Positions 19,785 through 63,041 of a stretch of DNA of 64,000 nt are shown here, piece by piece; within the stretch, counting starts at the first letter, position 1, and the number at the start of each line of letters is the position of its first letter. This stretch comes from Allacma fusca. Its lineage: Eukaryota > Arthropoda > Collembola > Symphypleona > Sminthuridae. Location: the NCBI GenBank assembly GCA_947179485.1, contig OX359248.1:28281378-28345377 (forward strand), read 5' to 3'. The notes beneath the pieces are model-generated. The model saw only the letters and a list, made by a program, of their open reading frames with translations. It did not search any database and had not been told where the DNA came from. Both the position numbers and the translations under genes were made by a program.

Positions 19785-21830
19785 TGGTCATATAGATAAA
19801 ACATTTCGTGGATTTTCATGTACGTCATGGAATGACGGCAGATACAAATGTGTAGCCTAACCAGTGCTCGGACTGGGTACGGGTAATACTCGGGTAAATG
19901 GGTACGGGTACAGGTATGGGTACTACCCGGGTACAGAAGTTGCGTACTCGCAAGTACGCGGGTACTACCCGGGTACTCTTGATTTTAGGCAATAAAGTGG
20001 GTACAGGTACGGGTACGGGTATGGGTACTCACTCAGTGGCAATCGGGTAGTACCCAATGGGTACGGGTATCACTATGTAAAATACCTGTACCCGTGGGTG
20101 CTGTACCCGAGTATTTTTGGGTACTTCAAGGATTCCTGATGGGATGGATTATATACTATGGCTAACAATAAGACCTACCAACCGTGGAGTTGCTTATTTC
20201 TTAGTATACAGATACTTGCGTTAGTGACAGAGCCAAGTGGCTTCGTCTCATTTATGATTACGTGGTAGTTGCAATCTAACGCTTCTAATAATTCATCCAA
20301 GGAATCTAATAAAGAAATGGAGCGTAGAGTCAGTGAAATCATGTGTTTATCGACTTAAATAGTGCAGCTCATCAACGAAGAATTTCAAGGGGGAGGTTCT
20401 TGGGATTCAATTTAATTAGCTTCATTGGGAGGGTAACATTACAATTATTTGAAGACGTGTTACGAGATAAGATCGAAATAAATATGCATTTATTAGCAGA
20501 CCCATTTCTTAACGTTACAAGTACCCAGGGTTGCCCAAATGAAAACGCCAAGGCATTTTATGCAGGCAATTTGAGCATTGTCAATTCAGGGTATTTATTG
20601 AGGTGAATATTTATAACATTTTAGAATGAAAAATATCATTCCTTGCACGCAATATTTATATTTCAGTCCCTTTGATTAATCTTGATAATTTTGTTGTTAA
20701 AAGAACTTGACAGACATCTGAACTTGACGTTCAAAACTTCCATGGGGTTGCATTTTAGTCCTATTTTGCCTGCATTTTTTCGAAAATCTCCGTCTCGGGC
20801 TTCATAAATGTCAGAGAGTTTACGAATGTTTGTTTTATAAATCTAATATAAAATGAATATTCAATATTGCCTCCCACATTTATTTCCTGAAACCGCAATA
20901 TTTGACTTAGAAAAATTATGATCAACTCAATTTTTCCGTATAATATTTTCTATACATAGTGTTCGATTAGCCGTAAACGATTAGCAGGGGAAAAAAATTG
21001 TTTCTTGTTCTCCAAGTTGAAAAGCAAGTTATGAAGAGTTTAGTATTAAAGATTCCGTCCCAATTCTAATTATCGAGAACACATTTCATTTCATGCAGCA
21101 AGTTATTATTTTGGGGTAGTAGGATTTGAATTTCGTCAGTGTTTATTAAAAAAATCACAAAATGCTTTAAATAATTTTTTCAAAAAATTCGAATAGGATG
21201 TCTTTAACACCTGGGGAAAATTCCCAAAATCCCGGACACTTTTAATGGAGGTCAAAAAATTGTCAAATTAAATTTTTTGAGCTGGGCAGGCTAATGTCGC
21301 CGGGGATTTTAAATCGGGCAAACTTCCAGTACCCGAGTAATACCCGGGTACACACAATAGATACTCGGGTACGGGTACAGGTTTTGGGTACATTATGGGT
21401 ACAGGTAAATTGTGGGTACAGGTACTACATTGTACTTTCAGGTACGAGTACGGGTACTGAAATAATTTACCCGGGTACTCGGGTATGGGCACGGGTATAG
21501 GTACAGTATTTTGTAGTACCCGATATTCGGGTACGGGTATGGGTACGGGTACACGGTTTCTGTACCCAGTCCGAGCACTGAGCCTAACCTTGTTGCATGT
21601 TTCTGAAAATAATTAGGGGAAATGCGTTTCATTTTTGGAGCTTATTGTAACCCATTGTTAGTAGTTTTATTGTTTAATTTCAGCTACTAAACCCGCTTTG
21701 TTTGGTGATGGCCGACAAAAACTTTATTGGTCGTGTACAGATGACAGAGAGTCAAGAAAACGTTTACACGCTCCACAATCCATACAACAAGGGATTGTAA
21801 AATACATTTAATCCCCCCATTGCGTAATCA
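19785..21830. repeat. Dispersed repeat, copy B, split by a hAT-type element
   Basis: The left piece (19785-19861) and right piece (21581-21830) together match copy A at 15140-15620. The join is the insertion of the 1.7-kb element at 19862-21580 with an AGCCTAAC target duplication. Confidence 0.8.
19862..21580. mobile_element. Non-autonomous hAT-type element, GGGTAC family
   Basis: Ends are CAGTGCTCGGACTGGGTAC and its inverted partner, an identical 19-bp terminal inverted repeat. The flanks carry AGCCTAAC on both sides (19854-19861 and 21581-21588), an 8-bp target duplication as made by hAT transposases. About 250 bp at each end is packed with GGGTACGGGTA-type units, in mirrored orientation (19870-20120 and 21320-21560). 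The middle (20130-21300) has no transposase; the 87-codon frame at 20343-20606 shows no known domain. The repeat copy at 15140 serves as a pre-insertion reference. Confidence 0.9.
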
Positions 21831-22869
21831 CATGTTTTTCCAAAATATGTTCATCCCACTGCACTGTTACAAAAACTCTCGATACAGGCTTCAAGGAATT
21901 GGAGCAACCCCAGGATCATTTTGGAAAAGCTAAAATTTTGAAAGTTTAAAATTGATTATGACATTTGACATTTCATTGACAACCGAATTTCTTGCTGGAA
22001 GAAAATGTCATCAGAAAATAATACGGTCAGTTATGCCTTTGTTAAAATACTCGCTTTGAGCGAACAGTAAATTACTAATAATATCAAAAACAAAATTTGA
22101 GACAAAGTTTTTAGAACATTCGTATTTCACACAACGTAAATTTTCAAGCCTTTTGCTACCAATGTAATGTCTAATCCAGTGAGGTGGTGCCGCTGACTAA
22201 CATTTCAAAACGATGTCTTGGATTTGTTTCTTTTTGTTTTAGTACAGATATTCAATGCAAGGGACTTGCTACACTTGTTCGACAGCTCTATTTTGCTCTA
22301 ATGACATGTAAGTTTTTTCCGAAATTTTGAATTTTGAAAGAACAATTTTAAACTTTACAAATTTTAGTTTTACAAAAAATTCCGGAATTTTCCTAACTTC
22401 CTACTTCCGCTGTGTCGATGCTAGTTCAGGATGATACAAATGAAAAAGCTTAACAAATATTTTCTACAATGGAATAGTTTTTGCACGCGTAAGGCAGTGA
22501 CCGCTCGTAGGAGTATACATGCTGAGTGTGCAAAAGAGCATGTACTATACTTTAACATACAGGTAAATATGTGTATACTCACGTGCATAATCGGAAAAAC
22601 AAAGTTGATTATTGTTCAGATTTTACAAACCCCTAGTTTGTTCAAATTTTGAGTATGCTAACAATAAGCCGATTATTACGCCGCCGGTCCTTAGAGACGC
22701 GTCATTCTCAGAAAAGCGAATTTCTGTGTATAACCTCATTGTCAAGTCAAGAGTCATGTATCGAATTTAAGCCAACAGTCAAGTTTTAGGTCCAAATTAA
22801 GCGTCACGTTCAAATCATGTTGATTATACAAATGGCTCTTGCTCTTACAGCAGATCTGATTCGAGAATG
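21831..22869. other. Intergenic, no gene seen
   Basis: No domain-bearing frame, repeat end or RNA gene recognised. Confidence 0.35.
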
Positions 22870-23050
22870 TCTGGCAAAGGAGAGATTTCGAGTAATTTCT
22901 TGAGCACAGTTAGTGCAAAATGATGCACAACTATACAACAATGCCTTTTCATTACATATGGGAATTATTTCACTCTTTGAACCACCCATTTGTGACTTGT
23001 AGTTGACTTAGAACAGTTTTCAGCAAACTTTTTAAAGTGTCAGAAATAGA
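22870..23050. repeat. Dispersed repeat, partner at 61490-61640
   Basis: Shares long runs with 61490-61640, including CACAACTAT, ACATATGGGAATTATT and TTGTAGTTGACTTAGAACAG. Here the sequence runs on past TTTTCAGCA. At 61640 the match is replaced by GGGTAC-rich sequence. Confidence 0.75.
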
Positions 23051-25496: not shown

Positions 25497-28400
25497 CCTA
25501 TTGTTTAGTTGCTGAATTGGTCTAAAAATCTCCTGCATAGGCTTGTTTTGTTCATCCAATACTTCTCGAAATTGTTGTAGCTGTAGCAAATAAATAAATA
25601 AATAAATATGACTTTCCTAGTATCTAACATTTTTAAGGGAATCTTCTGAAACATATTTGCTTTATATAATACATATGGAGACGTCCCTAGAGGATGAAAA
25701 GGATCCCATGTAGCACCGTTTGTGATAGTCACGTTCAGATATGGCAAAACAATTCACTACCAATAATATAACGTGAAATTTGATGAAAATTTACGTTATG
25801 CATGAAACGTGTATAAATAATTATTCGTATTACGTAACAAAATATTTTCGTAGGACCAGTAACATTTACGTGAATAAAAATTCCGAATTTTAACGTTATT
25901 GCATTAACTAGATTACTACCACTGGCACCAAGCATGCGCATCGATTTGGCGCGATTGAACCTCGAAACAAAGAAATTTAGCCATTTATCGTTGTCGACAT
26001 CTTGGCCGCATGTTTCAGTGAAACCGTGGAAAGGAAAATTGCACTGCCTGTGGATCATCAACTATCAAAGGTAAAATTATAATTTTTGAAATTTAGTATG
26101 AAAAAATATAGTACAAGGCATACCAGAAGAATTGAATTACGACACGCTCAAGATTATTCGCATTTAATCGAAACTGATAGGTGTGTGAGTAATTTAGAAA
26201 AAGCAGACATAAGTGCAAATGAGCTTGTTTGCAGTGAAATTAATATTGCTCCTGACCAACTATATTCATCATTACATTTGCAACAGTTAGTGGCCAATTG
26301 TGAAAATGAAGAAATTGCAAAAGAAGTAAACAACCCACAAGAAAAATTTGTTTGCGGACTAAAACAGTGGGCAATTGTTGAAAATATTTCTCATTCATCT
26401 CTTCGGAAGCTTCTACAAAATATCAACACGAATTTACACTTAAGTCTTCCCAATGATCCAAGAACATTTTTGGGCACTCCCAGGTCAACTATTAAACGAA
26501 AGGTAGTTCCAGGACATTATGTCCACATCGGTCTCAAAGCATGCCTTGAAAACGAATTAGATTGCAGTTCTTCCAGTGTCACCCATATTAGTGTGAACAT
26601 TAATATTGATGGTCTACCCTTGACAAAAAGTTCCAATAGCCAGGTGTGGCCAATACAGGGCCAGATTAGTGATGCAGTTAACCGAAAGCCCTTTGTCATA
26701 GGAATTTACCACGGATTTAGCAAGCCCAAGAACAGCAATGAATTTCTTTTCGATTTTATTCAAGAAGCTAAAGAAATTTTAACTCACGGAATTAAAATAA
26801 AAGGAAAACAATTTTCATTTTCAATAAAATCTTTTATTGCGGACGCTCCAGCTCGCTCTTTTATCACAAGAACTGTAGGACATAATGGTTATTTTGGATG
26901 CTTAAAATGTGATCAAAAAGGATTTTACTATAACAGACGGGTTGTTTTCGAAAATGAAGTACGAAATTTACGAAGTGATGCGTTCTATAAGCGTGGTGAT
27001 TATAGTGCAAATATACTTAATGAAATAAATGTTGGATTTTGTTCACAATTTCCATTTGATTATCTACATTTAGTATTATTAGGTGTGACAAAAAAATGCC
27101 TAACATTATGGTCACATAGCAAGACGAAAAAAGGTCGACTGAGTAGGAGACAGCTAATCGAAATATCGTCAAGGCTGACAAAAAAAAAAAAATATATTAC
27201 AAAAGAATTTAGTAGAAAACCCAGAGGATTATCAGAGCTGGGGAGATGGAAGTGTACAGAACTACGATTATTTTTATTGTACTTATCTCCTGTAGTTTTA
27301 AAAGGTGTTTTAGCTGACAATTATTTTGATCATTTTATGTGTTTTCAGTGCGCGATACTTATTTTAAGCTGCGATAATTTTTTAAAAGAATATTTAAGTT
27401 ACGCTAAAGAACTACTAGAATATTTTGTTGCCGAATTTCAAGATTTTTACGGATTTGAATATCTGTCATTTAATATCCACGGCTTACTCCATTTACCTGA
27501 TGATTGCGAACGGTTTGGAAATTTAGACAGGTTTTCCTCATTCCCATTTGAGAACAATTTGCAAATGATTAAAAAACTTGTTCGGGGTAAAAAGCACCCA
27601 TTGCAAGAAATTGTAAGAAGAATTGCAGAAATACGGAATATTTCAGTTCAATCAAGCAGCCAAGCAACTAAAGCGAGTGTTGATGATAAAAACAATGTAT
27701 ACGTAAATTCTACTGTAATAACTTTGAGAACGCCAGATAATTTTTGCCAACTTTTTTCCGGAAAAATTGTGAAAATAAATAAAATCTTGGAAGATGATGG
27801 CATAAAATTCATCTACGGTGTAGAGTTTTCCCACAAAGAAGATTTTTACACTAAGCCTTGTTTGTCCGGAGATTTAGACGTGTTTAAAATTAAATTTTCT
27901 AAACGGCGAACAATACCAAAGTTTAAAGTTCAAGATATCAAGTGTAAGGTTATGTTGGTTTTTTAAAAACCGAATACTTTTATTTCGTTTCCAGTTCTAC
28001 ATTCAGCTGCGCCATGAAGTATTACGTCGTTAATTTTCCGACCGAATCTGCTATTGAGGTTGTTCCTGAGTCTTGGATCAATAATTCCCAACGAAATTGC
28101 TTTTGGCCACCATCGTTTGGTGTCGGTGCCAATAATCCCTCACTTTCTAAATATCTGGTTCCTGAGAAGGATGCCTGGCAAAATGAGCCCATTGACGATT
28201 TTTACGGTCCATATGGTAAACAATTTTATAATTAAACTTATTAGTAATCTCAAAATGTAGAACGATATTTTTTTTATATTCTTACTACTTCATATTTTTT
28301 CCTAACATTTTAGACTCAGAGCTGGAAGCTCGAAAGAAGGCCAAGAGACTCTCGGAGCCAGATTGTGAAACAACGGACTACGAAGCTCCTAGAAAAAGAA

Positions 28401-31400
28401 AAGTGCCAACAAAATATCGGGTAGATTCTGAAAGCATCCTGTTGACACCACGAACGGAGATTCCCAGAAAGGGTGTGATAAAATCATTTCCATCAAAGCT
28501 TCCGGGGAAAAAATCACCGCAGCAGACTTCGGTTAACCAATCACCTGTGGGAATTGCGAAGCGTGGGCTTCCATTTACTATTACCGAAGGTAATGAGCCC
28601 AAAACTCTTCTAGTGGCAGGGAACAAAAGTTCGCCGTCAAGTAGTGCACTTCGTGCATTTACAGGAACAAGTGGAGAACACTTTGAAAAAAATCTGGATA
28701 CGTTTCTAACACTAATTCAGGTAATATTTATTCTAGTGTATACGTGTTTTCTTTTCTTGGGTTTAAAATTTAGGTGGCGTCAGCCACCTACTAAAGTACC
28801 CTTGTCCGTACGTCCGTGTGTCCATACGCACGAAGTCTCAAAAACTACTGAACCGACTGTAATGACATTTTTATGGACTTTATTTTTTCAACATTAAGAC
28901 TGAGATTGTATTTGGTTGAAATTGGCCGGATAGGTTTGAGAAAATAATACTTGAAATTTCGTAGTCAAATCTCAAAAACTGATAAATCGAAATCATTAAA
29001 ATTGTTTCTGTAAATTGTTTATGTGAATCTAATAATTATCACTTATGTTGTTTAAGTCGGCCCAACAATTTTCACGAAAAGAAAATCTGAAAAAACACCA
29101 AATTAATCCTGTTTTAACGGCGGTAGCTGACGCCAACAAATTATTACATAGCGACGACTTTTATTTAACTATTGAAATTTGCCTGTTTGTTCTTATAGAA
29201 TTTCAAAAAATTGTCGTTTCTTCTCTGGCAGTGATGAAAATACGGCTTCAGCAAATTGAAGATTCACAAACCTTGATTTTGGATCAACTCAAATCTCTTA
29301 CTTCTTTCAAAGCGAAAAGCCGCAACTTGAGTCTACCAATTTCCTCGTTTGATGAATTGTTGAAGCTTGAGAACACAATTTCTTCAGATGAAGTGAAGTA
29401 CAACGACTTGGTAATTTGAGCTATAATTTACATTATACTGGTGGATTAATATAAATTAATAAAGAATTCAAGCAGAATTAATATATTGATTATAAATGCC
29501 ATAATTGAATTTTAACAGGCTAACTCAGTTGATTGGGTCGGAGGAAAAGACGTTCGGAATAGTGTATTCAAAACCATGCAGATGCTGATGACGGACGAGG
29601 TTGCGTCAAAATTAAACTGGAAGGGGAAAAATGGAAAACATCCATTTAGCATCATGGAAATATGCACGATAGTGACAAGTAAGGCTTTAACCCTGTGTTT
29701 TATTACTTTGAATTAGTTGAGTATTAATTATTTAAAAAATTTTGTTGTAGATTTATTTAATTAGTTGCCAAGAATTTACCTGTACTACTCAATTTTATTA
29801 TATTTTATGCACATTTTGTATTGATTTTGTATTTATTGATTACAACTATTTACTTATTTTCAGATTCGGTTCATTTTTACTTTGGCAAGAAAGTTGGTAA
29901 TATGGTCCTAATTCAAACAGCAATTAAGGATTGGCTCAAAGCATCACCTAATCGTCTTAAAATGTGATTATATGAGAATAATTTCCTAGTAACATTTGTT
30001 GAATGTTTTATTATGTTTTAATTTCATTTATTTTAAAGGAAGTCAAACAAGCAACTTGCCACCGTCGGAAATAAGAAACTTGGTTGTGATGAAGTTTCCT
30101 CTGATTCATCGGACTAGTATCTTAATTAGTTACTACTATTAATATGTTGGTTAAGTACAGATTAATCTGTAATGCGGTTGTTATTGGGGCATGGATAATA
30201 ATTTTTATAATGTGTAAAGGTTTATAAAGTTTTGGAGGCGCTGTTTGTTATTCAGAATCAATTATTAAAATAATTATTAAGTATAACGTGTATTTGAGTT
30301 ACATGAGCGTTAGATTATAAATAAAAGGACCATAGTATCGTACGTCACAGGTCTCTTTCACGTCACTATATATTCATACGTCATAATTCAATCAGAAATC
30401 ACCGGCGGAAGTAACGTAATATTTCGGCTAATTTCATCACGTTATATTAGTGTTTCATTTTCACGTAATACAGTGCGGACATTCACACGCTAATTTATGT
30501 GTTTTTCACCATATCTATCCCTTTTGACAACGTTAATATAACGGAAGTTGGATGAATGCAGTAACGAAGTATTCACGCAAAATTTACGATTCGGTGCTAC
30601 ATGGGATAGTATTATTACCTGTGTCTCAGAAATCTGTTCCGTGTTTTTAATAGAGTTCCACAAAACAACTTCGGCACAGTCTGGTGTTGTTAATGATCCA
30701 TTGTATTGGAAATCATAAAACCGCTCAGTTTGCTTAGGGAGCAATTTGAGCAGATTAAGATTAGTTCCAGTAGTGTTGTGGCCAGAATTCTTCACATTAC
30801 TCAGTACCTTCAGTATCGGATCAAAAGCTGCGTTGGGGACGTTGGAAACCTTTTTGGTTACAAACGTTTCAATTTACGTTTGTTTTCAAACAAATTCAAG
30901 TAAACATGATTTATACACAAATTACATATTATGGGTTGCTATGCTTCATAAATTGTAATATATTACGTCATATACAACTCCAAACACAGCAAGAGCATTT
31001 GGTTGGTTTGACTTGATAGCTTCATTGGTACCACTGAATTCGCTTGAATAGTGAACGAAATGACCCTCCATTGCGTGTCTATACGGGAAATCAAAGCCTA
31101 CATTCAAAATTACCAACTGACTGTGAACATACGGAGTTGATTAAATGCAATCCACGTTTTCACCATACGGTGCATCGTTAAATTTGTGCTCTGATCCGCG
31201 ATTATTTTTGGAGCCCCAATGAAAATGAATTTGGCTAAATATATATCGTTTGTTTGCCAAGTTGCCTTGACCTCCTTGCAAAAAGCTTGTGGATGTAAGA
31301 TCAGCCCTGACGGATGCTTGTACTGAAAAACAAGATACATTGTTTGAATAATTATATTTTTCAAATATAATGCTCCTTAATGTTTTTATATTACAATATA

Positions 31401-34213: not shown

Positions 34214-34755
34214 CAGGGTTGGGGGTTTTTTTGTTTTTTTTCAAAAAAACCAAACAACCAGGTTTTTTTGGTTTAAACCGGGTTTTTTTGGTTTAAACCA
34301 GGTTTTTTTGGTTTAAACAAATTTTCAATCCAAAACATTCGTTAATATGCAAAAACATGTGAATTTGAACAACTTTACTTATTTCCCAAACTCAGTAAGT
34401 ATCACAAAGCATTAAATATTTAATAATTTAGATATAATTTTAACGATAACTGTGCAGCATAAACACAAGTTTGGCATTTTTCATTGTACAAACGATACCG
34501 AATTTCCAAATGTACAATTTCCAAATGTACAAGACTAAAAGCTAATAGTATTATTTACTTCACTAAAGTTTAACTACACAATATCACAGTAACTGCACAA
34601 GTTTTGCGCACGACGAAATATAAGCATTTTGGATTGAAAATATTAAACGTTTAGGTGTTTGGTTTAAACCATTGGTTTTTATAAAAAAACCGTTTGGTTT
34701 AAACCGTGGTTTAAACCATGGTTTAAATCATTTGGTTTAAACCAAACCAACCCTG
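34214..34755. mobile_element. Non-autonomous hAT-type element, GGTTTAAACC family
   Basis: Ends CAGGGTTGG and CCAACCCTG, flanked on both sides by ATACGAAA (34206-34213 and 34756-34763). The outer parts are built from repeats of TTTTTTTGGTTTAAACC, several copies on the left (34220-34320) and several on the right (34660-34745). No coding capacity. The paralogous segment near 36070-36085 has a single copy of the target and no insert, so this is a documented insertion. Confidence 0.92.
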
Positions 34756-37750: not shown

Positions 37751-38956
37751 CAGTCATGGGCAATTGGTTTACCTTGCCTTTAACATTGCCATGAAAATTA
37801 AATACAATATCGCCTGCCTTTTCGCCTTCCCTGCATCATATTTTGCAATTTCCCCTTATCCAAAAGGTAGGTTAATATTTGTGCCTTCCTTGCCTTTTTG
37901 TACCATTTCAAAATGCCTTGTCTAACCTTAAATGCTCTTTTTGTTCGAAAATAGGATTAGCTGCATGTAACATGTGGCTGGATCTGCAATACGATATAAT
38001 TATGCATTGAACGTGTTTGAAATAGACGGAAGTGTTCCTGTAACAATGCAGTCACAATTTATTTTAAAAAAATAAGTATTGAACGAATTGGAGCTGTTTC
38101 GGATCCGAGTTTGAGTAGCAGTCCGAATTAGAGAAGTTTCTCCATTTTCTCTTTCGTGAAAGAAATTGTGTACGAGATTTTGTAGATGAATGAGCATCTT
38201 AACTCTTGAACATCGAGCGGTCTATTTCATTTCTAGAATATTTTGCAATTTAATGTTCGGATTTATTTTGAGTGTAAATTTTAAATACTTGGTAAAAAAG
38301 AATCATTTTGATTTTCTAATTATTATTAACGGGAGAGCTTAGCAAATGATTTATAGTTTGTCCACCCTTGCCGGGCACTATACTCCAATGGTCCCGAATC
38401 TTCGCATTGGAGACATTTTGGCTTTCTTCCAGATTCATATTTTGACATTTCAACAAACTGGAAGTATTTCACTAGATCTTCTCTCACTTTGAGCTCTTTA
38501 ATCTTTAACAGGCATTTCAGAAATTGTTACAGCAATGATTTCACAAACTCTGACAGAAAATTTCCAAATTCACACGCCTTCCACTGAGTAAGAGAACTGT
38601 TGAATTTAATGAGAATATGCAATAACGTCTCGCGAGGTATTATAACGTGGTCATCTCAATGTTATGTACATATGGATGTAAAACGTGTTCATTGCTATTT
38701 TTGTTTGTATTTCTCACCGTCAGATGCCCTCGAAATGCAATTTTTGATCCTTACCTTAATCCTTAGCATAAATTGAGCCTTCCTAAAACCTTGCCTTTAA
38801 TACCAAAATTTTCAAGCCTTTCTACTAAATTTCAATGTTCGTCTATAAATTTTTCAGCCTTCCTTTCTCCTTGCCTTCATTGTAGCGGGTTTTAAATGCC
38901 TTCTTTCCTTTTTGCCTTATACCAAGGCCTTTCCTAAGGCAAGGTGCCCATGACTG
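37751..38956. mobile_element. Non-autonomous hAT-type element, GCCTT family
   Basis: Ends CAGTCATGGGCA and TGCCCATGACTG, a perfect 12-bp inverted repeat, flanked by GTTGAAGT on both sides (37743-37750 and 38957-38964). Both terminal regions are rich in CCTTGCCTTT, GCCTTCCTTG and similar units (37770-37930 and 38750-38945). No transposase. It lies within the left arm of the inverted duplication and is absent from the right arm. Confidence 0.9.
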
Positions 38957-38964: not shown

Positions 38965-39980
38965 TATAGTTCGTGTTAGTCTTGACTTGACTTATTAATT
39001 GATTGAATTAGGCCGAAAGGTTTCCATAGAATAAATCTACTCAATACTCATAACTTTTCCAGGGATATGAACGCGGCTGATCCCATGAAGTGGTCGCTAC
39101 TTCCGTTGCATTCAACAATAACAAATGAGGATCAGCAGAAAGTTTTTCAACCGGTTCCGAAGGCTCATCGTAAAATCATTTTGGCCACGAATATTGCTGA
39201 GAGTTCTATTACAGTCACAGATATCACATATGGTCAGTTTTTGTTCAATTTTGGTCATCAAATTTTGTAGTAATTACAGTAAAAGCTGATTTGGGAATTC
39301 TTATTTGAATGTAATTTTGTTTTGTATTCAGTCATTGATTTCTGTTTGACAAAATCTTTGAGCTGAGACCCGACTACAAATTACACATGTCTTCGTTTGG
39401 AGTGGGCTTCGAAAAATCAATGTATTCAACGGAAGCCGGGGCGTTGCGGGCGTGTGTCGGCTGGCCATATTTTCAGAATGGTTCCAGAAATGTTTTATGT
39501 AATAAAAATCTAATCATCTCATCCGCTTATCGTTATTTGACATTCAAATGAATGGACTTTTAAAAGTGGAGCTTCAATTAATTGATATAATTATTTGTTT
39601 GGTTGTTTTCAGAATAATCTCGTTCAGGAAGCGTTCCCCGAAATGATGAAATCCAGTTTTGAAAGTGTAGTTCAACATGCTAAGATTTTCAATATGACAC
39701 TCCTTGCACTGGCAATCGATCCACCAAAGCTCTCTGGTATACGTAGGGCGGTGGCGATGTGGCGAATTTAAAGGAAGTTGGTGCTATTACCATTGATTGT
39801 CAAGGAGAAAATGGAAGAAGGTTTAATGAATTCGACGGTGATTTGAGCTACCTTGGGCAGGTCATGGCAAGACTGCCGATTGATTTGCGATTCGGGCGTT
39901 TGATTTTGATGGGACATGTGTTTGGACTTCTTGAAGAAACCATCATCATAAGTAAGGTTCAAGTAGTTCGCTGTATATGT
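38965..39980 (+). pseudogene. Inverted partial copy of the spindle-E/TDRD9-like helicase gene
   Basis: Genomic copy, introns included, of 41110-42115. Exon pieces encode LLPLHSTITNEDQQKVFQ and ILATNIAESSITVTDITY (helicase motifs IV-V), then CLTKSLS and LRLEWASKNQC after an in-frame TGA. Next come QRKPGRCGRVS (motif VI with one extra proline), a decayed exon, and LSYLGQVMARLPIDLRFGRL. Introns keep donor and acceptor sites, so this is a DNA-level duplication and not a retrocopy. It carries the same TGA as the main copy plus its own extra changes, so it is a pseudogene fragment. It is transcriptionally convergent with the main copy across a 1.1-kb spacer. Confidence 0.9.
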
Positions 39981-41109
39981 AGAGTTCACGAATATACTTA
40001 TAATGTTATACTTATTCCCATTTACCGTATAATCTTAAAACTAATAAGGTGTCTCAGCTGCTTCATTTTTATTGCGTGGTAGAGCCCATGACAGAGTGAG
40101 CCAATCTTATGTCCACGGATGTCAAAAGACAGCAAGAGTTTTGACCCATTAGGCTCCACGTATGGAATAGTGGCATTCCCAGCATTCACATTTCCGTATT
40201 CGAACTGTGAAGTAATGTGGTGGGCGTACCTACACAGATTTATTTATTGCCATCAGTGACCTTCTAGCTGAAACTATTTTCATATCAATACTTTGAACAG
40301 AAACAAAATAGTATTTATTCAAACTAACAAGTGGCCAGGCTGATCCCCCGGAAAACCTCGAAATACGACTGTTGTTGCTGGATTGCAGTTCCTTTGAAAT
40401 CTCTACGAAATAATTCGGGTAGAATGTACCGGCAATAACGATCTGTTTACCAGTTTATATTACGTCAGCATATTTGACACGCACTTTTCAAGAAGTTTCC
40501 TTATTGTTAGTGCTAACTTGAGATGAGTACGTCAACTGACTGTATTGATTACCTTCAGCAAAATCCCGCGTTCTTCCGTCAGTTCTAAACTGGGATTCTC
40601 ATTCACTGCAATATTCATCGTTTCAAGCCGCCGTTGAATTTCTTTAACTAGATTGACAATTTCTCTGTAAAAAAAACGTTCTATAAATAACGAATTAAAT
40701 TGCATCACTAATGTCTAGTCACAAATTAAGGTAATTAATACCTCATCACAGGTCGCTGCACCAAATACTGATTCGCCCATACTTTTTCATCATCCTTTTT
40801 CCGGAAATCGCAAATCGCAACTCTCAAATTTTCGCACCCAAGTCTTAAAACGCAGAGTTAAAAACCAATTAAATTATTACTTTCAAGCAAGTCGAAATAT
40901 TAGGAATAACCACCAATAATATAACCACCTTGTAAACGTTGATAAGGGCCAAACAATCTGAGAAGGTATTCTGAGACCAATACAACTTAGACAAGTACGG
41001 CACGGCCTGAACTCGACGATGGTATGGATAGCTGAAAGGGCTCTTGGTACTCAGACCAGCAGCTGTAGTCCACATAATTATTAGAAAATATCCCTGCCAT
41101 GACAATGGA
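39981..41109 (-). other. Spacer of the inverted repeat, helicase 3' exons
   Basis: Unique sequence between the two arms. On the minus strand it carries the C-terminal helicase-associated region: TAAGLSTKSPFSYPYHRRVQ, KLYWSQNTFSDCLALINVYK, a TWVRKFESCDLRFPEK exon with a following frame change, EIVNLVKEIQRRLETMNI, and GTFYPNYFVEISKELQSS. The plus-strand copy stops where this spacer begins. Confidence 0.75.
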
Positions 41110-42115
41110 GTGTACATATACAGCGAACTACTTGAACCTTACCTATGATGATGGTTTCTTCAAGAAGTCCAAACACATGTCCCATCATAATCAAACGCCC
41201 GAATCGCAAATCAATCGACAGTCTTGCCATGACCTGCCCAAGGTAGCTCAAATCACAGTCGAATTCATTAAACCTTCTTCCATTTTCTCCTTGACAATCA
41301 ATGGTAATAGCACCAACTTCCTATAAATTCGCCGCCGCCCTACGTATACCAGAGAGAGCTTTGGTGGATCGATTGCCAGTGCAATGAGTGCTTTCGGGCT
41401 TCCCATATTCAAAATCTTAGCATGCAGAACTACACTTTTTAATCTAGATTTCATCATTTCGGGGAACGCTTCCTGAACGAGATTATTCTGAAAACAACCA
41501 ATCAAATAATTATATCAATTAATTGAAGCTCCACTTTTAAAAGTCTATTCATTTGAATGTCAAATAACGATAAGCGGATGAGATGATTAGATTTTTATTA
41601 CATAAAACATTTCTGGAACCATTCTGAAAATATGGCCAGCCGACACACGCCCGCAACGCCCCTTCCGTTGAATACATTGATTTTTCGAAGCCCACTCCAA
41701 ACGAAGACATGTGTAATTTGTAGTCGGGTCTCAGCTCAAAGATTTTGTCAAACAGAAATCAATGACTGAATACAAAACAAAATTACATTCAAATAAGAAT
41801 TCCCAAATCAGCTTTTACTGTAATTACTACAAAATTTGATGACCAAAATTGAACAAAAACTGACCATATGTGATATCTGTGACTGTAATAGAACTCTCAG
41901 CAATATTCGTGGCCAAAATGATTTTACGATGAGCCTTCGGAACCGGTTGAAAAACTTTCTGCTGATCCTCATTTGTTATTGTTGAATGCAACGGAAGTAG
42001 CGACCACTTCATGGGATCAGCCGCGTTCATATCCCTGGAAAAGTTATGAGTATTGAGTAGATTTATTCTATGGAAACCTTTCGGCCTAATTCAATCAATT
42101 AATAAGTCAAGCCAA
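41110..42115 (-). repeat. Inverted duplication, right arm, inner part
   Basis: Inverted partner of 38965-39980 at high identity, with a few differences per hundred bases. Homology ends at GTTCGTGTTAGTCTTG on the outside and at CGCTGTATATGTA on the inside. Confidence 0.9.
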
Positions 42116-42628
42116 GACTAACACGAACCAGACGGAAGTTTTCTTCGCCACAATATCCACTTTTTGCGCGATGATATTATTTTAAAATCAACTTTTTAGT
42201 TTTTAATAATTTGTTTAAACATTGCTCATAATATTATTATTTTTAACAAAAGAATGAAAAACATTTTTACAATAATAAAACGTTCTATGCGACAATAGCG
42301 TATAACCGAGAAAACGCGATGAATATGTTAAGTATACGAGATGGCTAAAATCTTTTTCACACTGTAAAATACACTTGAAAGGGGTTACTGCCGGGACTTA
42401 CTTAAAAAAGCTACCCTAAACAGAAAGCAGGTTGTTAGCGATAGGCCAAAATTACAGGAGAAAATTCTGATATTTTATTTATTTTTTCTGAGTCAAACTC
42501 TATAAATAGTACAAGACAGCAGTTTCTCTCGCGCTCCCAAGCTCTTCTTTTTTCTCATTGTACATAACATTACATAATTTTCACAAGCGGGCGGACCGAA
42601 GAGGAGCGCTCAACTTCATACATTTAGC
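42116..42628. other. Start of the transposon-laden helicase intron
   Basis: No gene seen. A+T-rich and mostly unstructured; it ends in the CATTTAGC target of the next element. Confidence 0.4.
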
Positions 42629-43385
42629 CAGGGTTGGAAAAAAACCGGTTTTTATCAATAAAGGCCAATCCAGTGGCAAGATATGGTAACAACCGGTTTT
42701 TATTTTATGTGGATTTTATTGGCTAAAATGTAATAATCTCCAGTACTATCCAGTTAAATAATCTAATGTCCAGGCCAGTGGTTGATATTGGATTTTACCG
42801 GCATCTTTTGGCTTGTGGTAATAATTGGTAACAATTAAGTCCGATCACGCGACGTGCTCCAAAAAATTAAAACTCCACTTCTTTTACGTCCGCACCTACT
42901 TACTCCCTATATAAACACGATTTTCGTTAGTTTAGCTAGCAACTCAATTTAAATATTATGGCTGACCGGTAGTTCTCTGAAGGATTTTCCACACTTCAGT
43001 GAGTGTCATTGCTGGAATGGTTTTTGATTCTTTTATTATTATTTTTTTCATAATCATTTCATTACCGAATAACTGCTTGCCTTGCAAACATTAAAATCGA
43101 AGATGACATTTTTCCAAATATTTAATAAATACTGACGGCTGAATAAATTGTTAAAAAGATGTCTTTTAGCCATTGTGGCTTTTATTCATTGATGTCCATG
43201 CATGCGTAATATTAGCCAAGCCGGTGGTACTTTTTGGTTAAAACCGGTTTTTATTGGACAGTGGATTTATTTGGACACTATTAATTATGGCCATTTTATA
43301 CCAATCTATACAACCGGACCAGGCCGGTTAGTACCGGATTTAACCCAATATTGACCAGGTTAATTCTTGCCACTTGCCAACCCTG
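42629..43385. mobile_element. Non-autonomous hAT-type element, ACCGG family, copy 1
   Basis: Ends CAGGGTTGG and CCAACCCTG, flanked by CATTTAGC (42621-42628) and CATTTACC (43386-43393), an 8-bp duplication with one change. The units AACCGGTTTTTATT, GGACAGTGGATTTATTTG and ACCGGATTTAACC recur near both ends. No coding capacity. The same family is at 60390-60788. Confidence 0.88.
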
Positions 43386-44019: not shown

Positions 44020-46660
44020 GGAGTTCAGAGCTAATCCCGCCGCGATAATCCCGCTGGTATTATTCCCGCGAACAGAATCCCGCTGCCAGTTTGACCGATG
44101 TATATAATCCCGCTCAGGATAATCCCGACACTAAGGAGATAACCCCGCCATATAATGAAACGCAGAATTTAATGATTATAAAATGCTGTTGCTGTAACAA
44201 CAGTGAAGATACAACAATTGAGCACTCAAGATCCGAAGTAATAAACAAATAATAAGCAAAGACAAGAAAAAGAGTTCCTGTCGTTGTAATTTAAATGTCA
44301 TTTTAACGTTAATTTCAGAAAAAAATTGCTTTGAGTTATAATTCTGAATAATGAACAGAGTGTAGCTACATACACATGTCACAATAATTCACAATCTAGG
44401 TACAAATCAAAACGGCCAGTCAACAGCACACAGCTTGTTGTCAAGTACATGGATAATATTAAATATTAGCAAACAATATATTGTTTACTGAATTTAATAC
44501 AATAAAACCTGGGTCGGGAATATCGTCAGGGGGGTTATGGTTGGCGGGATTACATACTTTTGAGATCGGGATTAAATCCTCGGGGTTGCTTCGGCGGAGT
44601 TAACACTGGCGGGATTAGCTCTGGACACGGCGATTATTGCAGAACAGTACGTACTTATGTCCAGTGAAGGGAATAAAATGGTTAGATGCTCCGGGTACCA
44701 TGCTGCCATTGTGAAATAAATGTTTCTAGAATAACCAGCAGGCCGGCCAGAAAAATGTTCTTTAGTTTGATAGCGGTGTACGTATACATGAACTTTAGCT
44801 ACGGAAGGATTTTGACTAAAATATACGTAAGCAGCTGATGGAATTGCAAGTTACTATTACTAACCTTGTCCAACGTTGCATCTTAAAGGTCCATACTATT
44901 ATGGTGACTCAAAGAGAGGAAGCATTTTATTAGCGAAAAAACACCAGATTTGAATGGCATTCGTAATTAATGATACACCATAATCTGCATTACACGCTTC
45001 AAATGAGCTAATGATGGATTAAAAATTCCAGTTATAATCTTAATTCTGAATTGAATCACTGTCATCCAATTCTATCAATGCCTTTAGCATTATAGATTTA
45101 TTGCATATTTTATATATATATTGCATTTACATGTAACAAAATTCTGTGGTGGTCCACTTTGAAGACTGAATTAAAGTTAAATTTCCCTTATATATGGGAA
45201 GTATATGCACACCATTTTGTAATTTCAAGGACGTACACAATTTCGGAAGAAAAAAATGAAATATTCCCGTAGACTTTCAGGCCTAGTCCACCAACACTAA
45301 TTCTACAATTATTACAGTTTCGTTTATCACGTTATTTTCGTCCTAGGATTTACAACCCAATTAGTACGCCTTAACGCCACTTACAACATTTGTTAGTTAA
45401 TGCTAAATAAACCATTAATACAGATGGTTTTGTTTAACGCGTGGCAATTACAAGTGGTTCATACTTTTATCTTGATGGATTTTACCATGGATACAATAGT
45501 AATTATGCGTAGTATGCATGTAAATAAACGATTCAACTTCATCAATAAATCAGTTGAACACCTACAGAATCGGTCTAGAGGTAGAACTGAAATTAATTTG
45601 GCGAACAACCTTGTTGTAACGTTCTGGATTGCTGGAAGATGCTTCAGCAATTGTGTAATTACCCGGAGGTGTTTGAAGGTATTGATTTAGACAAAATTAA
45701 TTCACAATACATATACATCTCACTCCAGTCAACCAATGAAATATTCCCGTAGACTTTTAGGCATATAGACATGTTCAGAATGCTCTGCGCATGACACGGA
45801 GGGAGTGTGTATAATTTTCCGCGGATTCCGATACTGGTGCCTAGCTCATTTTCAATTATCATTGAAACATATAGGACTGCCAAATTAAAACTAAAATATA
45901 AGTGCTTTTTCAAACTCAAAAATTGCTAAATTTTTTAAAATAGATTACAATTTTCGACTAGAAGAAAAGACCACAAAAAGTAATTGTATAACCGTTACCA
46001 ACATGGTCGAAGGGAGCAATAACATTACGGGGCATGTTGAACCTTCAAGAGGATCCACGAAAAATAAATTAAAAGTACCATTTTAAATTGTAGAGGTAAA
46101 TTAACATTAAAATACATCTTGTACTGAATCTAATGTGAACCCACAGTAATATGACCTGCAATTCATTGATGTGTACGCTTGTGTTAACAATTAAAAATCT
46201 CTGAGTCCATTCATTCGTCCTTTTCATTAACTGGAAAGGGACAGAATTTCCAAGGGGAATTTTTTCGGTATTATTGTAACGAGAAATAATACATGTGGGC
46301 ATTTTCAACTGATAAGCGGTTATTTACCTCATCAAAATCAGTTTTTTTAATTTTATAAACTTACACTTAGTGGTTTTTCATTTGTAAACAATAATGAGCT
46401 AAGCACCAATGTGCTTTTGTTGTTTTATAAAGTAGATTCATCTTGCGTTTAAACGGTAGTTACAACAGTTTAAACTTTAAACTTTATTGAAATATTCCCT
46501 TAGACTTTCAGGCATAGACTGCCAACTAAGTCCTCCAATGATTTTTTTAGCGGTCTGCAGCTTTTGGTTTTGTTTATTGCGTAGTTTTGAATTAGGTTCA
46601 ACTTACATTGAAAGCAAGAATTTAAACTGTATTGAAATATTCCCGTAGGCTTTAGGCACA
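43595..46660 (+). repeat. Five dispersed direct copies of a 25-bp motif
   Basis: Consensus TGAAATATTCCCGTAGACTT followed by TCAGG, at 43595, 45257, 45737, 46488 and 46633, all in one orientation and all upstream of the decayed transposase at 47357-50290. I see no copy elsewhere in the window. They could be subterminal transposase-binding sites or short ends of a dispersed element. Confidence 0.75.
44020..44629. mobile_element. Non-autonomous hAT-type element, AATCCCGC family
   Basis: A 610-bp element with inverted ends sharing CAGAGCTAATCCCGCC (left 44020-44041, right 44608-44629, with six outer bases partly matching). It is flanked by GCGATTAT on both sides (44012-44019 and 44630-44637), an 8-bp target duplication. 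TAATCCCGC-type units recur in direct sense at the left (44031-44150) and inverted at the right (44520-44620). The A+T-rich core has no coding frame I can support. Confidence 0.9.
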
Positions 46661-50611: not shown

Positions 50612-52031
50612 CAAGGAAAACCAGTACAGCACCACGTTCATTTACTTCAAAAGAGTCGACTCCATTCTTGTCAGGTTTTGAGGTATTGTATCTCCTCTCG
50701 TGCTTCTCAAAGGTATCAAAAGAAGCAATGACGTTAACGGCCATTTCATAAATATCTGGAGCAATTTTTGGTTGTTCGTAGAAATCAACTCTGCAAATCT
50801 TGGGCTAAAACAAAACAAAAGCATGATAACATCATTCACTCATTAAAATTATTGCATTCAAATTGTCATTGTTAAAACTTTACCATTTCAATGCCATGTA
50901 TATTATTTATATAATGCTCAGTCACAGGGTATGTGGTCAGATGAGGTATTTGGACTATAACCGTTCCCAACGCGTTCCCGTTCAACCTCCAGTTAGGAAA
51001 GTAGTCCATGAATTTCTTCACACTCAGAGTAGCCGACATAAGAATCACTTTTGTGTATGTATCTTGCCTTTCAACCATGATTCGTTTGATTACGAGCATC
51101 AGAAGATCAGTATCCAAATCGCGCTCGTGAACTTCGTCTGAAATAAAAATTGCCACAAATATATACACTGACAAATAAATAGCTACATTTATACTCATAA
51201 TAGTAACATACTTTCGCATTACGCTAAACACAGGAATTCCGCAAAGCAATAATTACCTATGATTATGAGACTCCATTGTTCCAGTGACTTTTTGTTAATC
51301 ATCATTTGAAGAAGAACTCCCGTCGTCATGTATACTAAACGAGAATCTTCACTGAATTTCCGATCCATTCCAACCTACCAATACACCAGAAATTTCATTT
51401 ATCAACCATCGAAAAGTTAGTAATTGGCATTCTACTGTACATAGTCAAACTCAATTACCTTGTACCCAACCAAAGACCCTAGCTCCCACCCTCGCTCCCA
51501 ACAAACTCGGTTAGCTACAGACAATGCAGCAATTCGCCTCGGTTGAGTGACTACAATTCTGCAGAATTTATTTTTCTCTACTGCATCATCCATGAGGAAC
51601 TGTGGCACCTGAGTAGTCTTGCCACAGCCTGTGAATCCTTCTATGATTGTCACCTGGTGGGCGTTTACACTGGAAAGAATCTGCAAGTACGAAGAATCAC
51701 AACTGAGTATTAAAATATCGGCATGCATACGGCTTTTTGCCCGAGTGGAGTCGGATGTGATTTTGCAGATCCGAAGATGTTTTAAACCCTGCTTTACATC
51801 CAACGTAAGTGCAAACACATGCGTGTCTCCTACACATTTCCCAAACACCACATTACATTTTTCATAACAAATTAACCCATGTAATTCCCCCGCAAATACT
51901 TTAAACACAAACCTGTATGATGCATCAGATGAACTGCTAACTGCGACGAGTCCCGTGCTTGATAGGGGCACAACTTGCATCTAATAAAAAACATCAACCG
52001 TCCAAAAACCGTATAAACATCACTAGGGAAT

Positions 52032-52188: not shown

Positions 52189-52191
52189 TAG

Positions 52192-58426: not shown

Positions 58427-58900
58427 TATAACAAGTCATGTAATTAACTATCTTTTTTTACTTTGAATTTCATAAAAAAAAGCATTTTCTTTTCTTTCCT
58501 CTTTTTTAAATATAAGTTCAAATTATGTTATAAAGTAACAGAGAAGAACTACTTGAATATTTGAGTAACTGTAAACGGGTTGTAACGGCTGTGGCCAAAG
58601 TATCGACCAATAAAACCATTATTATTATTATACGCTAAAATCATGGATTTCCCGGTCTTGCAGTATAGCCAATAGGTGATGTCACCTATTGGGGTGGGTC
58701 CATCAGTTTTGTCAGTGATGACACTTGATGACACCTATGACATTGGGTCCATAAATCCCCTTTTTTAGCATGACATCATTGATGGACGTTCCCTCAGCCC
58801 GCTGTACTTCTCTTCTCGGCTTGCTGTATATACCACCGACTTCTTGGCTATATAGTGGAATAATATAGTACATACAGCGGCTTGCTATATAGTGAAATGA

Positions 58901-58978
58901 GCCGTGAAGGTTTGAATTATAAAGTCAATGCCGCGAAGGTTTGAAATGTAAAGCCAATGCCGCGAAAGTTTAAATCAA
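58901..58978. repeat. 29-bp tandem repeat, nearly three units
   Basis: The unit GCCGCGAAGGTTTGAAATG followed by TAAAGCCAAT starts at 58901, 58930 and 58959. It is small and has no evident function. Confidence 0.75.
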
Positions 58979-59034
58979 CGGACAGGAAGGGGACAATAAT
59001 ATTAAAGGATTAGGAAGTTCAAAACTACTGCTTC

Positions 59035-60085
59035 CCTGTATAAGTACACCCTTAAAGTCCCTACAGAAAACCGAAAACCCCGCATGTGTGTATGTCCAAA
59101 TATCCTGACTTAATAATACTATATTTATTTATTGCTACGTTGGTTTATTGGTTTGTTGATCGGTTGTTCCACGCTGAAAACTTGTTTGTATTTCCTGCCA
59201 CCCAACGTTGAAGAGAGGAGGTGGGGTGTTTTGGTTTGGGGCTGTATGGGGGCTTCTGGGGCAGGTAACTTGGAATTTATTGACGAAATAATGAGTTCTG
59301 ATTGTTGCCAAGGAATATTGGATCGGAATATCAAGCCTGGTGCGCGAAAACTTATCCTGGGTAGCCATTTTGTGTTTCAGGAGGATAATGATCCTAAACA
59401 CACATCTAAGTCAACATCACTTTTCTCCCGGGAAAACACATTTTTGGTGATGAAATGGCCAGCACAAAGCCCAGACATGACCCCAATTGAACAATTTTGA
59501 GATTTTATTGCGACGGAGTTGAAAAATTTCAACATTTCTGGGAAACCCACGTTTAAAAATCTGGTCACCGAAATACGGGGAAAGATCCCCCCGAAGTTAC
59601 CCGGAAGCTAGTGGAGAGCATGCCTCGGAGGATAGCAACTGTCCTAGCAGTCAGAGGTGGGCTTACGCGGTACTAAAGTCCAGGAATTAAGTGGTAATTG
59701 AGGTAAAAAATTAGTTAAACGCAGCTGTCCAACTTCAAATGACACCAACTTTTTAACCCGATTTTGTTTCAATTTTTTTTACAGCGTATGAGGTGTACTG
59801 TGTACAATAATACGTACAAGTATCTAATCCCCATATGTTCGACATTAAAACCTGAATTTTTGACAAGATTCGCTTAACTGTGTAAAAAGTTATTAGCAGT
59901 TATTCAAAAAAACATTGGGCGTCCAACTTCAATTGACTGGCACTGTAAGTACACGCTTAAAGTCCCTACAGAAAACCGAAAACCCCGCATGTGTGTATAT
60001 CGAAATAGCCTGTACGTAATAGTACTGTATATTTATTTATTGCTACGTTGGTCTGTTGGTCTTTTCCACGCTGAAAATTTGTTAT
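59035..60085. repeat. Direct duplicates flanking a Tc1 relic
   Basis: 59035-59180 and 59943-60085 share about 140 bp, including TAAAGTCCCTACAGAAAACC, CCCCGCATGTGTGTAT and TTATTTATTGCTACGTTGG. The Tc1-like sequence lies between them. The duplication is far longer than a TA target site, so it reflects a duplicated host segment or a composite repeat. Confidence 0.8.
59181..59960 (+). pseudogene. Tc1-like transposase relic
   Basis: The C-terminal half of a Tc1/mariner DDE transposase. Landmarks are RRWGVLVWGCMGASGAGNLE, HFVFQEDNDPKHTSKSTS (second catalytic aspartate) and MKWPAQSPDMTPIEQF (third catalytic acid), then a TGA where a tryptophan is usual. After a frameshift comes ESMPRRIATVLAVRGGLTRY, the usual C terminus. 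The N-terminal helix-turn-helix half and left inverted repeat are missing. The right end near 59960 reads AATTGACTGGCACTGTA, a plausible terminal repeat with a TA target. Not functional. Confidence 0.88.
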
Positions 60086-60389
60086 ATCATTGTCCAGATG
60101 TCTTAACAATCTTTCTATAACATGCTTTACTTCTCCGCATTTTTACAACCATTGCTAATTTGTTGTAGTATAAAAGGTAGGGATTTCCCAATGCAACCTT
60201 ATACATTCCTCTTCAAAATTTTATGCATACGTCTTATTGTTCACTGCATCAGTTGCATGACTACACCCCTACTCGGCATGTCGGCATCAGTAGCATACCT
60301 GCTCCCTTCACATTATACTGTATGTATTTATGAAGCCCCTAGCCTAAATTTCCTAGGTGCCTATATTTATTCCCCAAACTTCCTATAAT
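60086..60389. other. Intergenic, no gene seen
   Basis: A frame at 60122-60388 lacks any recognisable domain. The stretch ends at the CCTATAAT target of the next element. Confidence 0.35.
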
Positions 60390-60788
60390 CAGGGTTGGCA
60401 AAAAACCGGCTTTTATCAATAAAGGCCAAGCCAGTGGCATGAAATGGTAACAATCGGTTTTTATTGGACAGTGGACTTATTTGAATGATATTAATTATGA
60501 CCATTTTATACCAACCTATACAATAGGTCCGGGCATGTTAGAACCGGATTTTAACCAATAATAACCAGGCCATTTCTGACCATTTGGAAACCCTGTGTTC
60601 ATGCATGCGTAATATTAGCCAAGTCGGTGGTACGTTTTGGTTAAAACCGGTTTTTATTGGACAGTGGATTTATTTGTATAATATTAATTACGACAATTTT
60701 ATACCAACCCATGCAATTGGACCAAGCCGGTAAGAACCGGATTTTAACCAATAACGGCCAGGCCATTTCTTGCCACTTGCCAACCCTG
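60390..60788. mobile_element. Non-autonomous hAT-type element, ACCGG family, copy 2
   Basis: Ends CAGGGTTGGCAA and TTGCCAACCCTG, flanked by CCTATAAT on both sides (60382-60389 and 60789-60796), a perfect 8-bp target duplication. It shares AAACCGGTTTTTATTGGACAG and TAATATTAGCCAAG with the copy at 42629-43385. An internal GGAAACCCTG near 60588 suggests an internal rearrangement. Confidence 0.92.
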
Positions 60789-61489
60789 CCTATAATATTT
60801 TATTTGCATCTAAATCCTACTGAACCTTGCCTATATCCTAGTGAAGATTCTTGTTTTTTTGCTTCCTCCCTAGAATTTTTGCCTATAAAAGACCCTAGAT
60901 ATAGGCAAGAGGTCCATCTTTGGTTCAAGCTCAAATAAATGTCAAGTCACTTACAATGGTTGATTCCTAGACTTCCTAGTAAATTAACACTTTTTGTGTA
61001 CGCCTAGTACAGTGTGACTAATATGATCAGTCATTAACTTTTAACCACCAAGGCATGACAAGATGTGATGCCTCTTCGTACTTGCGGCTTGTACTGTGAA
61101 ATAGCGTTAATTTTGTGAATTTTGCGAAAACGATTTTATTTTCTGCTAATCAGAGGAAATACAAACCAGTAGTATTTCAAAAAAGTTTGTTTGGTATCCA
61201 TTAATCCTTGTTACAATAATATTAATTCTGATCCATTAGACCCTTAATGGTGTCAGGGGTCAGGATAAAAACAAAATGAAAGACAAAGAAAAGGTACGGC
61301 CAACAATTACTCCTGTAATATCATATTGAAGTATAGAACAGTGTTCATCGAATAATTGGGAACTAGATTCTTACGTTATTTCAAAGATGTTGACAGTCTT
61401 TGATTCTAGGTGAGAGTAAATGCCCATATAATGTATGCATACATATTATATGTGTAATTAATTTTTACTGTTATGAATTAGTCGCGTTA
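60789..61489. other. Intergenic with a third copy of an arm-edge sequence
   Basis: 60905-60990 matches, inverted, the outer edge of the left arm (about 36895-36980) through TCAACCAT, GACATTTATTTGAGCTTG and related words. 60995-61050 resembles 33515-33580. No gene seen. Confidence 0.55.
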
Positions 61490-61640
61490 TTGTATGAGTC
61501 GTGTAATTTCTTGAGCGCAGTTAGTGCAAATTGATGCACAACTATGCAACAATGCCTTCGCCTTACATATGGGAATTATTCCACTCTTTGAATCACCCAT
61601 TTTTTACGACTTGTAGTTGACTTAGAACAGTTTTCAGCAG
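61490..61640. repeat. Dispersed repeat, partner of 22870-23050
   Basis: Direct match to 22870-23050 up to TTTTCAGCA, where GGGTAC-rich sequence takes over. Confidence 0.75.
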
Positions 61641-61870
61641 TGCATCGCATGGGTACGGGTAGTACCTGAGTATTTGGGTACAGGTCCAGGTCCGAAATGG
61701 GTACTATGTTTAAGTACCCATCCTGAATGGGAACTTTATGGGTACTACCTATATGTACCCAAATTTTGGGTACAAAGACAGGTGTTGGGTACAGGTACAA
61801 ACTTGGGAATTTGTGGATTGTACCTGACAGGAAGAGGTACAAGCTTCCAATATACCTGGACCTGACAAAT
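61641..61870. repeat. GGGTAC-rich fragment
   Basis: About 230 bp with GGGTACGGGTA, GGGTACAGG and inverted TACCCA words, related in motif to the element at 19862-21580. The left border CAGTGCATCGCATGGGTAC resembles a hAT-type end. I did not find a matching right end or target duplication. Confidence 0.5.
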
Positions 61871-62195
61871 TAATACATGAAAATGTGGCTACTTTTACGA
61901 ACAGAAATCCATCTATTACGACGCATCTAGTGTAGTACATGGCTCTCTCTCCGACCTACAGGTTTAATTTGATATTCAGCGTGGTTTCAGGAGTGCATCG
62001 TAATTTTTGAAAAAGCATACTGTTATGCAATAGAGATGGTTGACCAACTTAGCACAACGCGCCAGCAATAAGTACGTGTAACTACAAATTCCACTTGTGA
62101 TTCAGTAAAAATTACGTTAAATGATATCGTGGTTATGGAGGATGACCTAGAAGTGGAAGAACCGCTATGATGTAATACCTCAGATGGTATAGACG
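61871..62195. other. Intergenic, no gene seen
   Basis: No supported feature; it ends in the TATAGACG target of the next element. Confidence 0.35.
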
Positions 62196-63041
62196 CAGAG
62201 CTGTTGGGGACAAAATTCTTGTCCCGTCCCCGTCCCGTCCCGATATTTTTTCAAAACCTTTGTCCCCAGTCCCGTCCCGACAATCGGGACACGGTGACAA
62301 ACACCATGTCCCCATCCCGTCCCCAAAAAAATATAAAAACGTTTTCCCCGGTCCCGTCCCGAAAGTCGGGACATGGGGGAAAAAATCTTGTCCCCGTCCC
62401 CAAAATTTTTAAAAAACGTTGTCCCCGGTCCCGTCTCCAAAATTTAAAAAAAATATTGTCCCCGGTCCCGAAAATCGTGGCATGTGAACAAAATTCCTGT
62501 ACCGTCCCGATAATTACTGAAAACAGTTGTCGACATTCTCAAACCGAAAATCGGAACATGAGGAAAATTTCGTACAAAAAGTATTTGTACCAAAAACATA
62601 AAAAACACATTTATAGAATCGTGGCTCCAAGATTCTTCCTTAACTTTTTGAGCAACAAGCCTCATTTTCTACAACCTAAAATCGAATGTCTTACATTCGG
62701 TGAAATAGTGTTCACAGAATAGTTTACTCATGAGCATTAAAGCTGAAACGTTATCCTTGTTCTGCTATGCTTGCTCGTCCCGTCCCGTTATACACACAAC
62801 CAAAAAGCATGTCCCGTCCCGAATATAATGGGGACAATTGTTTTTGTCCCCGTCCCGTCCCGAATATAGTGGGGACAATTTGTTTTGTCCCCGTCCCGTC
62901 CCTGATATAATGGGGACATTTTTTTTTGTCCCCGCCACGTCCCGAATAGGACATGGTGACAAGTATTTTGTCCCCGGGGACGTCCCGTCCCGGTCCGTCG
63001 AGTGTCCCGACGTCCCGTCCCCGTCCCCGGCAGAAGCTCTG
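62196..63041. mobile_element. Non-autonomous hAT-type element, GTCCCC family
   Basis: Ends CAGAGCTGTTGGGGAC and, inverted, CAGAGCTTCTGCCGGGGAC. It is flanked by TATAGACG (62188-62195) and TATAGAAG (63042-63049), an 8-bp duplication with one change. The left 300 bp and right 250 bp are packed with GTCCCGTCCCC, TCGGGACATGG and TATAATGGGGACA units. The middle (62500-62750) is A+T-rich with no transposase. The long frames on both strands are by-products of the repeats. Confidence 0.9.

Follow-up and report, generated by a model that had tools for sequence, protein, structure and literature searches.

The window analyzed here, the whole 64-kb stretch of Allacma fusca contig OX359248.1 under study, contains seven short transposable elements without genes of their own, which fall into six families, A to F, with two copies (D1 and D2) of family D (Table 1). 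We consider it likely that families A, B, C, D, and F are non-autonomous hAT elements, that E is an inverted-repeat element not filed as hAT, and that the short motifs found toward the element ends are putative subterminal transposase-binding sites, enlarged by direct tandem duplication. The placement of these five families in hAT is a putative one, read only from their ends and target site duplications (TSDs), and we propose it because CAG ends and 8-bp TSDs occur in six of the seven elements. A role in transposase binding is suggested because the motifs lie near the tips at both ends and because binding of such motifs by hAT transposases has been published. In the mechanism that we favor, the motifs would be bound by the BED-type DNA-binding domain at the N terminus of a hAT transposase, and each family would be moved in trans by its own such transposase. 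The subterminal DNA would duplicate directly in tandem, so that copies would stay on one strand, and the outcome behind the inverted repeat would be same-strand instead of mirrored arrays. In this scheme, we infer transposase binding, mobilization in trans, and any benefit of additional copies.

As the initial annotation of this DNA had reported, all seven elements have 8-bp TSDs, which are exact in A, B, C, D2, and E and match at 7 of 8 positions in D1 and F. It had also described the ends as mostly CAG, and CAG is indeed present at both ends of all six copies of families A, B, C, D, and F. Element E departs from this description, since its tips next to the exact 8-bp TSD read GGAGTTCAG and CGTGTCCAG, which are not CAG-type hAT ends. 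The two hAT features considered, an 8-bp TSD and a short terminal inverted repeat (TIR) with a CAG-like start, are thus present together in A, B, C, D, and F. A relaxed scan of the window for paired ends (CA start, TIR match of 9/11, TSD match of 7/8) returned seven pairs, six of which are A, B, C, D1, D2, and F, and eight controls with displaced TSDs returned 1, 4, 1, 2, 2, 6, 3, and 3 pairs (22 altogether). CAG was found at both ends in six of the seven true pairs, compared to none of the 22 control pairs. A stricter scan (TIR match of 12/14) returned 14 pairs, including only three of the claimed elements (A, C, and D2) and five further pairs that fall inside a large inverted repeat. The elements had been called non-coding, and in agreement, none of the 150 longest window frames (at least 72 amino acids [aa]), scanned from a total of 214 stop-to-stop frames of at least 62 aa, matched a hAT or BED domain.

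Each family carries its own motif in excess of expectation when copies per element are compared to 300 dinucleotide shuffles (shuffle mean and maximum in parentheses). GGGTAC is present 30 times in A (1.14, maximum 5), GGTTTAAACC 6 times in B (0.02, maximum 1), GCCTT 17 times in C (2.43, maximum 7), AATCCCGC 6 times in E (0.01, maximum 1), and GTCCCC 19 times in F (2.16, maximum 7), while the excess in D consists of just two exact copies of ACCGGTTTTTATT in D1 and one in D2, compared to none in the shuffles. The GGGTAC arrays of A occupy the outer ~260 bp at either end, and the palindrome GGTTTAAACC is close to both ends of B. The first motif copy lies 11 to 56 bp from the tip, inside or adjoining the TIR, and the spacing of copies is irregular in A and C. 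Farther than 300 bp from either tip, A, C, and F have a single motif copy apiece, and B, D1, D2, and E, in which such a region is small or absent, have none. A blind scan of the window for 6-mer clusters, in which the highest value among 10 shuffles served as the threshold, picked up A, B, and F at both ends and E at the left end. It also picked up a tandem repeat close to 1 kb, a cluster of TCAAAA at 14151 to 14400, and a lone array at 61.5 to 62.0 kb.

The motifs had also been described as mirrored between the two ends of each element. This is true throughout the AATCCCGC array of E, in which TCCCG is found on the plus and minus strands 6 and 0 times on the left and 0 and 4 times on the right, and it is true of the tip-nearest copy in A, C, and F, as expected because that copy is part of the inverted repeat. 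It is not true of the arrays themselves in A, C, and F, or of the few copies in D. GGGTA in A has 19 plus- and 6 minus-strand copies in the left half and 15 and 5 in the right half; the corresponding values are 6 and 0 on the left and 9 and 2 on the right for GCCTT in C, and 18 and 3 on the left and 19 and 4 on the right for GTCCC in the GTCCC/GTCCCG arrays of F (8 and 1 and then 6 and 4 for GTCCCC alone). In D1, the few copies of ACCGGTTTTTAT are all on the plus strand, two on the left and one on the right. The motif of B is palindromic, so its orientation is not readable. Among the five orientable families, A, C, D, and F are therefore mainly same-strand, D on few copies, and E alone is mirrored. 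Local alignment of one end to the other, with 25 bp of TIR excluded, gave direct and inverted scores, respectively, of 41 and 33 for A, 38 and 36 for B, 27 and 18 for C, 43 and 23 for D1, 157 and 27 for D2, 21 and 27 for E, and 48 and 36 for F, with shuffle maxima of 22 to 33; the scores of C (shuffle maximum of 27) and E (maximum of 26) are at noise level. If each family is treated as a coin toss, the chance that four agree is ~0.06, and copies inside one family are not independent, so the same-strand polarity across four families is only suggestive.

Direct duplication is most visible in D2, which consists of two direct units (60418 to 60595 and 60611 to 60788) that are 80% identical over 178 bp at an offset of 193 bp, the first of which ends in AACCCTG, resembling a right terminus. 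D1 has a weaker version, with left and right parts that are alike in direct orientation (67% over 146 bp). Direct tandem units of ~82, 37, and 41 bp are found in F, and direct units of 20 and 12 bp are found in B. Duplication of this kind gives both extra copies and a shared strand, and no selection for polarity is needed.

The same plan is found at an unrelated locus, L004, which contains a hAT transposase gene (hAT dimerization domain PF05699 at 6.1e-20). In this locus, CAAATATTTG is present three times near either end and nowhere else on the contig, and its core, AAATATTT, occurs six times in the two 260-bp ends (mean of 0.04 and maximum of 2 in 2,000 shuffles) and is likewise absent elsewhere on the contig. 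The recurrence of the plan in L004 supports the reading of family motifs as transposase-binding sites. Both inverted ends of L004 read (A/C)AGTAGTGRTGGACCTTGA; no 8-bp TSD was found beside these approximate tips, the best candidate matching at 5 of 8 positions. The first frame of L004 shows, by eye, a C-x2-C...H-x4-H finger and has no Pfam BED match, and the palindromic motif of this locus is uninformative on polarity. L004 (positions 1 to 4875) is a eukaryotic-looking hAT locus within a contig of a Kiritimatiellae metagenome bin and probably represents contamination or a chimera.

L004 came from a pattern search of genome_contigs for hAT proteins, in which 2 of 85 stretches encoded relatives (L003 and L004), and a family search within the genomes of these two added a third hAT locus, L007. 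Both ends are visible in L004 only, since L003 starts within the gene and L007 yielded no convincing ends. L003 and L004 come from genomes that are metagenome bins of bacteria, in which the hAT stretches look like eukaryotic contamination. In wider searches, 1 of 52 and 3 of 387 genomes had a match; the only new loci, L009 and L010, are weak and stop ridden. In viral_contigs, 31 and 49 pattern matches for hAT proteins included none that encoded a relative. The D TIR had no match in viral_contigs, and the B end had none in genome_contigs. The A TIR had two matches in viral_contigs, L001 and L002, both phage-like and judged to be due to chance; L001 lacked GGGTAC when read whole, and L002 was read over the first 5,000 of its 12,288 bases.

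The initial annotation held that a class of elements with such motif arrays had not been defined. Family-specific subterminal motifs bound by hAT transposases are already in print for Ac, Herves, Hermes, and hAT-19-like proteins (PMC3260210, PMC3143072, PMC10368747, and PMC8097297), so the class is not new and the present families are further members. Ac transposase binds AAACGG subterminal hexamers, and Ac/Ds of maize resembles our elements in its 8-bp TSD, short TIR, non-coding derivatives, and transposase-bound family motif in the outer ~200 bp, although the motif differs (PMC3260210). Herves of Anopheles gambiae has one transposase-bound motif, CG/AATTCAT, that recurs at both ends and has tandem repeats of ~100 bp in its left end, both of which are likenesses; it differs in its motif and in encoding its own transposase (PMC3143072). 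The BED domain of housefly Hermes binds AAG(T/C) subterminal repeats that, as in our elements, cluster toward the tips, but the motif is only 4 bp long, its copies are fewer and less crowded, and the inner sites are largely dispensable in cells (PMC10368747). For hAT-19-like proteins and CGGBPs, motifs vary by protein and most contain CGG, each of the four hAT proteins has motifs that match subterminal regions of its own, and many domestications of hAT DNA-binding domains have produced DNA-binding proteins whose motifs are distinct (PMC8097297). The CGG-rich ends of A, D, E, and F are like these in motif flavor only, and B and C are unlike them. Overall, the proposal of hAT-type elements with diversified transposase-binding motifs is supported in part, by family motifs near the ends and by the plan of L004, and it does not extend to E as a hAT element. 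Where an element displays its presumed binding motif tens of times, transposase preference would be readable from sequence alone.

In A, D1, D2, E, and F, the ends have 36 to 76 CGG/CCG per kb, compared to 10.4 outside elements, which speaks for binding sites in view of the CGG found in most motifs of hAT-19-like proteins (PMC8097297). Several observations weigh against binding sites as the meaning of these motifs. The ends of B and C have only 8 and 4 CGG/CCG per kb, so CGG is rejected as a general explanation. The outer regions had been described as filled with the motif, which holds in that all families exceed their shuffles and is weak for C and D: the blind scan missed C, D1, and D2, D hardly counts as an array, and shorter D motifs are found on both strands. 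No transposase for any of these families is present among the window frames scanned. Motif arrays not confined to element ends had been named in advance as a finding that would refute the proposal, and this has come about in part, since one GGGTAC array (A-prime) sits outside any complete element. In published systems, some Ds1 elements without the AAACGG hexamer are still mobile, and none of seven hexamer-bearing Ds-like elements tested was excised (PMC3260210). Hermes with mutated inner left-end sites kept about 70% activity, its right-end repeats are without BED contact, and its authors judged auxiliary transposase binding within the ends to be unlikely (PMC10368747). These Hermes and Ds results speak partly against the earlier suggestion that array growth raises transposition.

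The strongest competing explanation, to which we give perhaps one chance in a handful, is that the arrays are neutral: a motif adjoining the TIR would have been duplicated by slippage or unequal exchange in old copies and moved to the other end by recombination, with the extra copies unread by any protein. This would fit the direct duplications in D2, D1, and F, since duplication by itself yields a shared polarity, and it would also fit the weakness of C and D and the largely dispensable inner sites of Hermes (PMC10368747). However, A, B, E, and F hold the same motif near both tips with little between, the same plan is seen again in L004, and known hAT transposases bind such motifs (Herves, PMC3143072; Ac, PMC3260210), all of which argue against neutral arrays.

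A rather unlikely extension is that hAT subterminal arrays keep one strand polarity across the element, so that the motif faces the interior at one end and the outside at the other. This polarity would mark which end is left and which is right and would guide the transposase ring toward pairing unlike ends, and it would be maintained by growth of the arrays through direct tandem duplication. Such a scheme fits A, C, D (on few copies), and F, the four CAG-type families whose motif can be oriented. In Hermes, repeats STR2 to STR7 of the left end are antisense and STR1 to STR5 of the right end are sense, and Hermes with symmetrized left/left ends is inactive (PMC10368747). Reading each end from its tip, as the text and legend of that paper suggest, would make the Hermes repeats same-strand across the element, in which case they may also fit. 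We found no earlier statement of same-strand polarity as a general hAT trait in the literature searched, in which subscription papers were mostly beyond reach. If true genome-wide, same-strand polarity would bear on how hAT transposases distinguish the left from the right end, and it is a point worth following up.

It is improbable that the elements belong to another superfamily. Duplications of 8 bp are also made by other superfamilies, such as P or Merlin, the hAT call was made from ends and TSDs, and E does not start with CAG, but the CAG pairs that distinguish six of the seven true pairs from the displaced-TSD controls argue against this assignment. That the arrays work through DNA structure such as G-quadruplexes is very improbable and is rejected as a general explanation because such patterns, with two starts in A (plus strand), three in F (minus strand), and one elsewhere in the window, are absent from B, C, D1, D2, and E.

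Table 1. Positions, target site duplications, and ends of the elements and of the lone GGGTAC array in the window
Feature	Positions	Strand	Length (bp)	TSD	Ends	Remarks
A	19862-21580		1719	AGCCTAAC (exact)	TIR CAGTGCTCGGACTGGGTAC	
B	34214-34755		542	ATACGAAA (exact)	CAGGGTTGG	
C	37751-38956		1206	GTTGAAGT (exact)	CAGTCATGGGCA	
D1	42629-43385		757	CATTTAGC/CATTTACC (7/8)	CAGGGTTGG	
D2	60390-60788		399	CCTATAAT (exact)		
E	44020-44629		610	GCGATTAT (exact)	tips GGAGTTCAGAGC / CGTGTCCAGAGC	
F	62196-63041		846	TATAGACG/TATAGAAG (7/8)	CAGAGCT	
A-prime	61638-61862	+				lone left end akin to A; 61% over first 231 bases of A; GGGTAC array

Outside the elements, GGGTAC is found 19 times in the window, and eight of these copies are at 61651 to 61787, within A-prime. 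No convincing right end or TSD was found at this locus, and A-prime is most simply a truncated copy related to A.

Several other features were noted in the window. At 813 to 1403, about 15 copies of an AGGTCA-rich 39-bp unit are repeated in tandem, and neither the relaxed nor the stricter scan found a TIR/TSD pair around them. The sequence GAAATATTCCC, followed by a similar stretch, is present five times on the plus strand within 3 kb (43596, 45258, 45738, 46489, and 46634) and is absent from the minus strand of the window. A gap of about 5 bp separates the right TSD of element C from the left arm of a large inverted repeat (38969 to 39988 and 41106 to 42128), whose arms are 96 to 100% complementary in blocks, lie about 1.1 kb apart, and carry DEAH-helicase-like coding stretches. 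The best solved relative of a helicase frame at 51435 to 51980 (minus strand) is Spindle-E (2.4e-25), so the inverted repeat possibly includes a duplicated piece of a PIWI-interacting RNA (piRNA) pathway gene. The window also holds carbonic-anhydrase exons and retroelement frames, which together with the helicase stretch mark its content as eukaryotic and probably animal. Long plus-strand frames are present at 26083 to 27963, 28232 to 28894, and 29036 to 29416. Among the latter, a 627-aa frame has no Pfam match at an E value of 0.01 and, judged by eye, resembles a segment of a further coding transposon.

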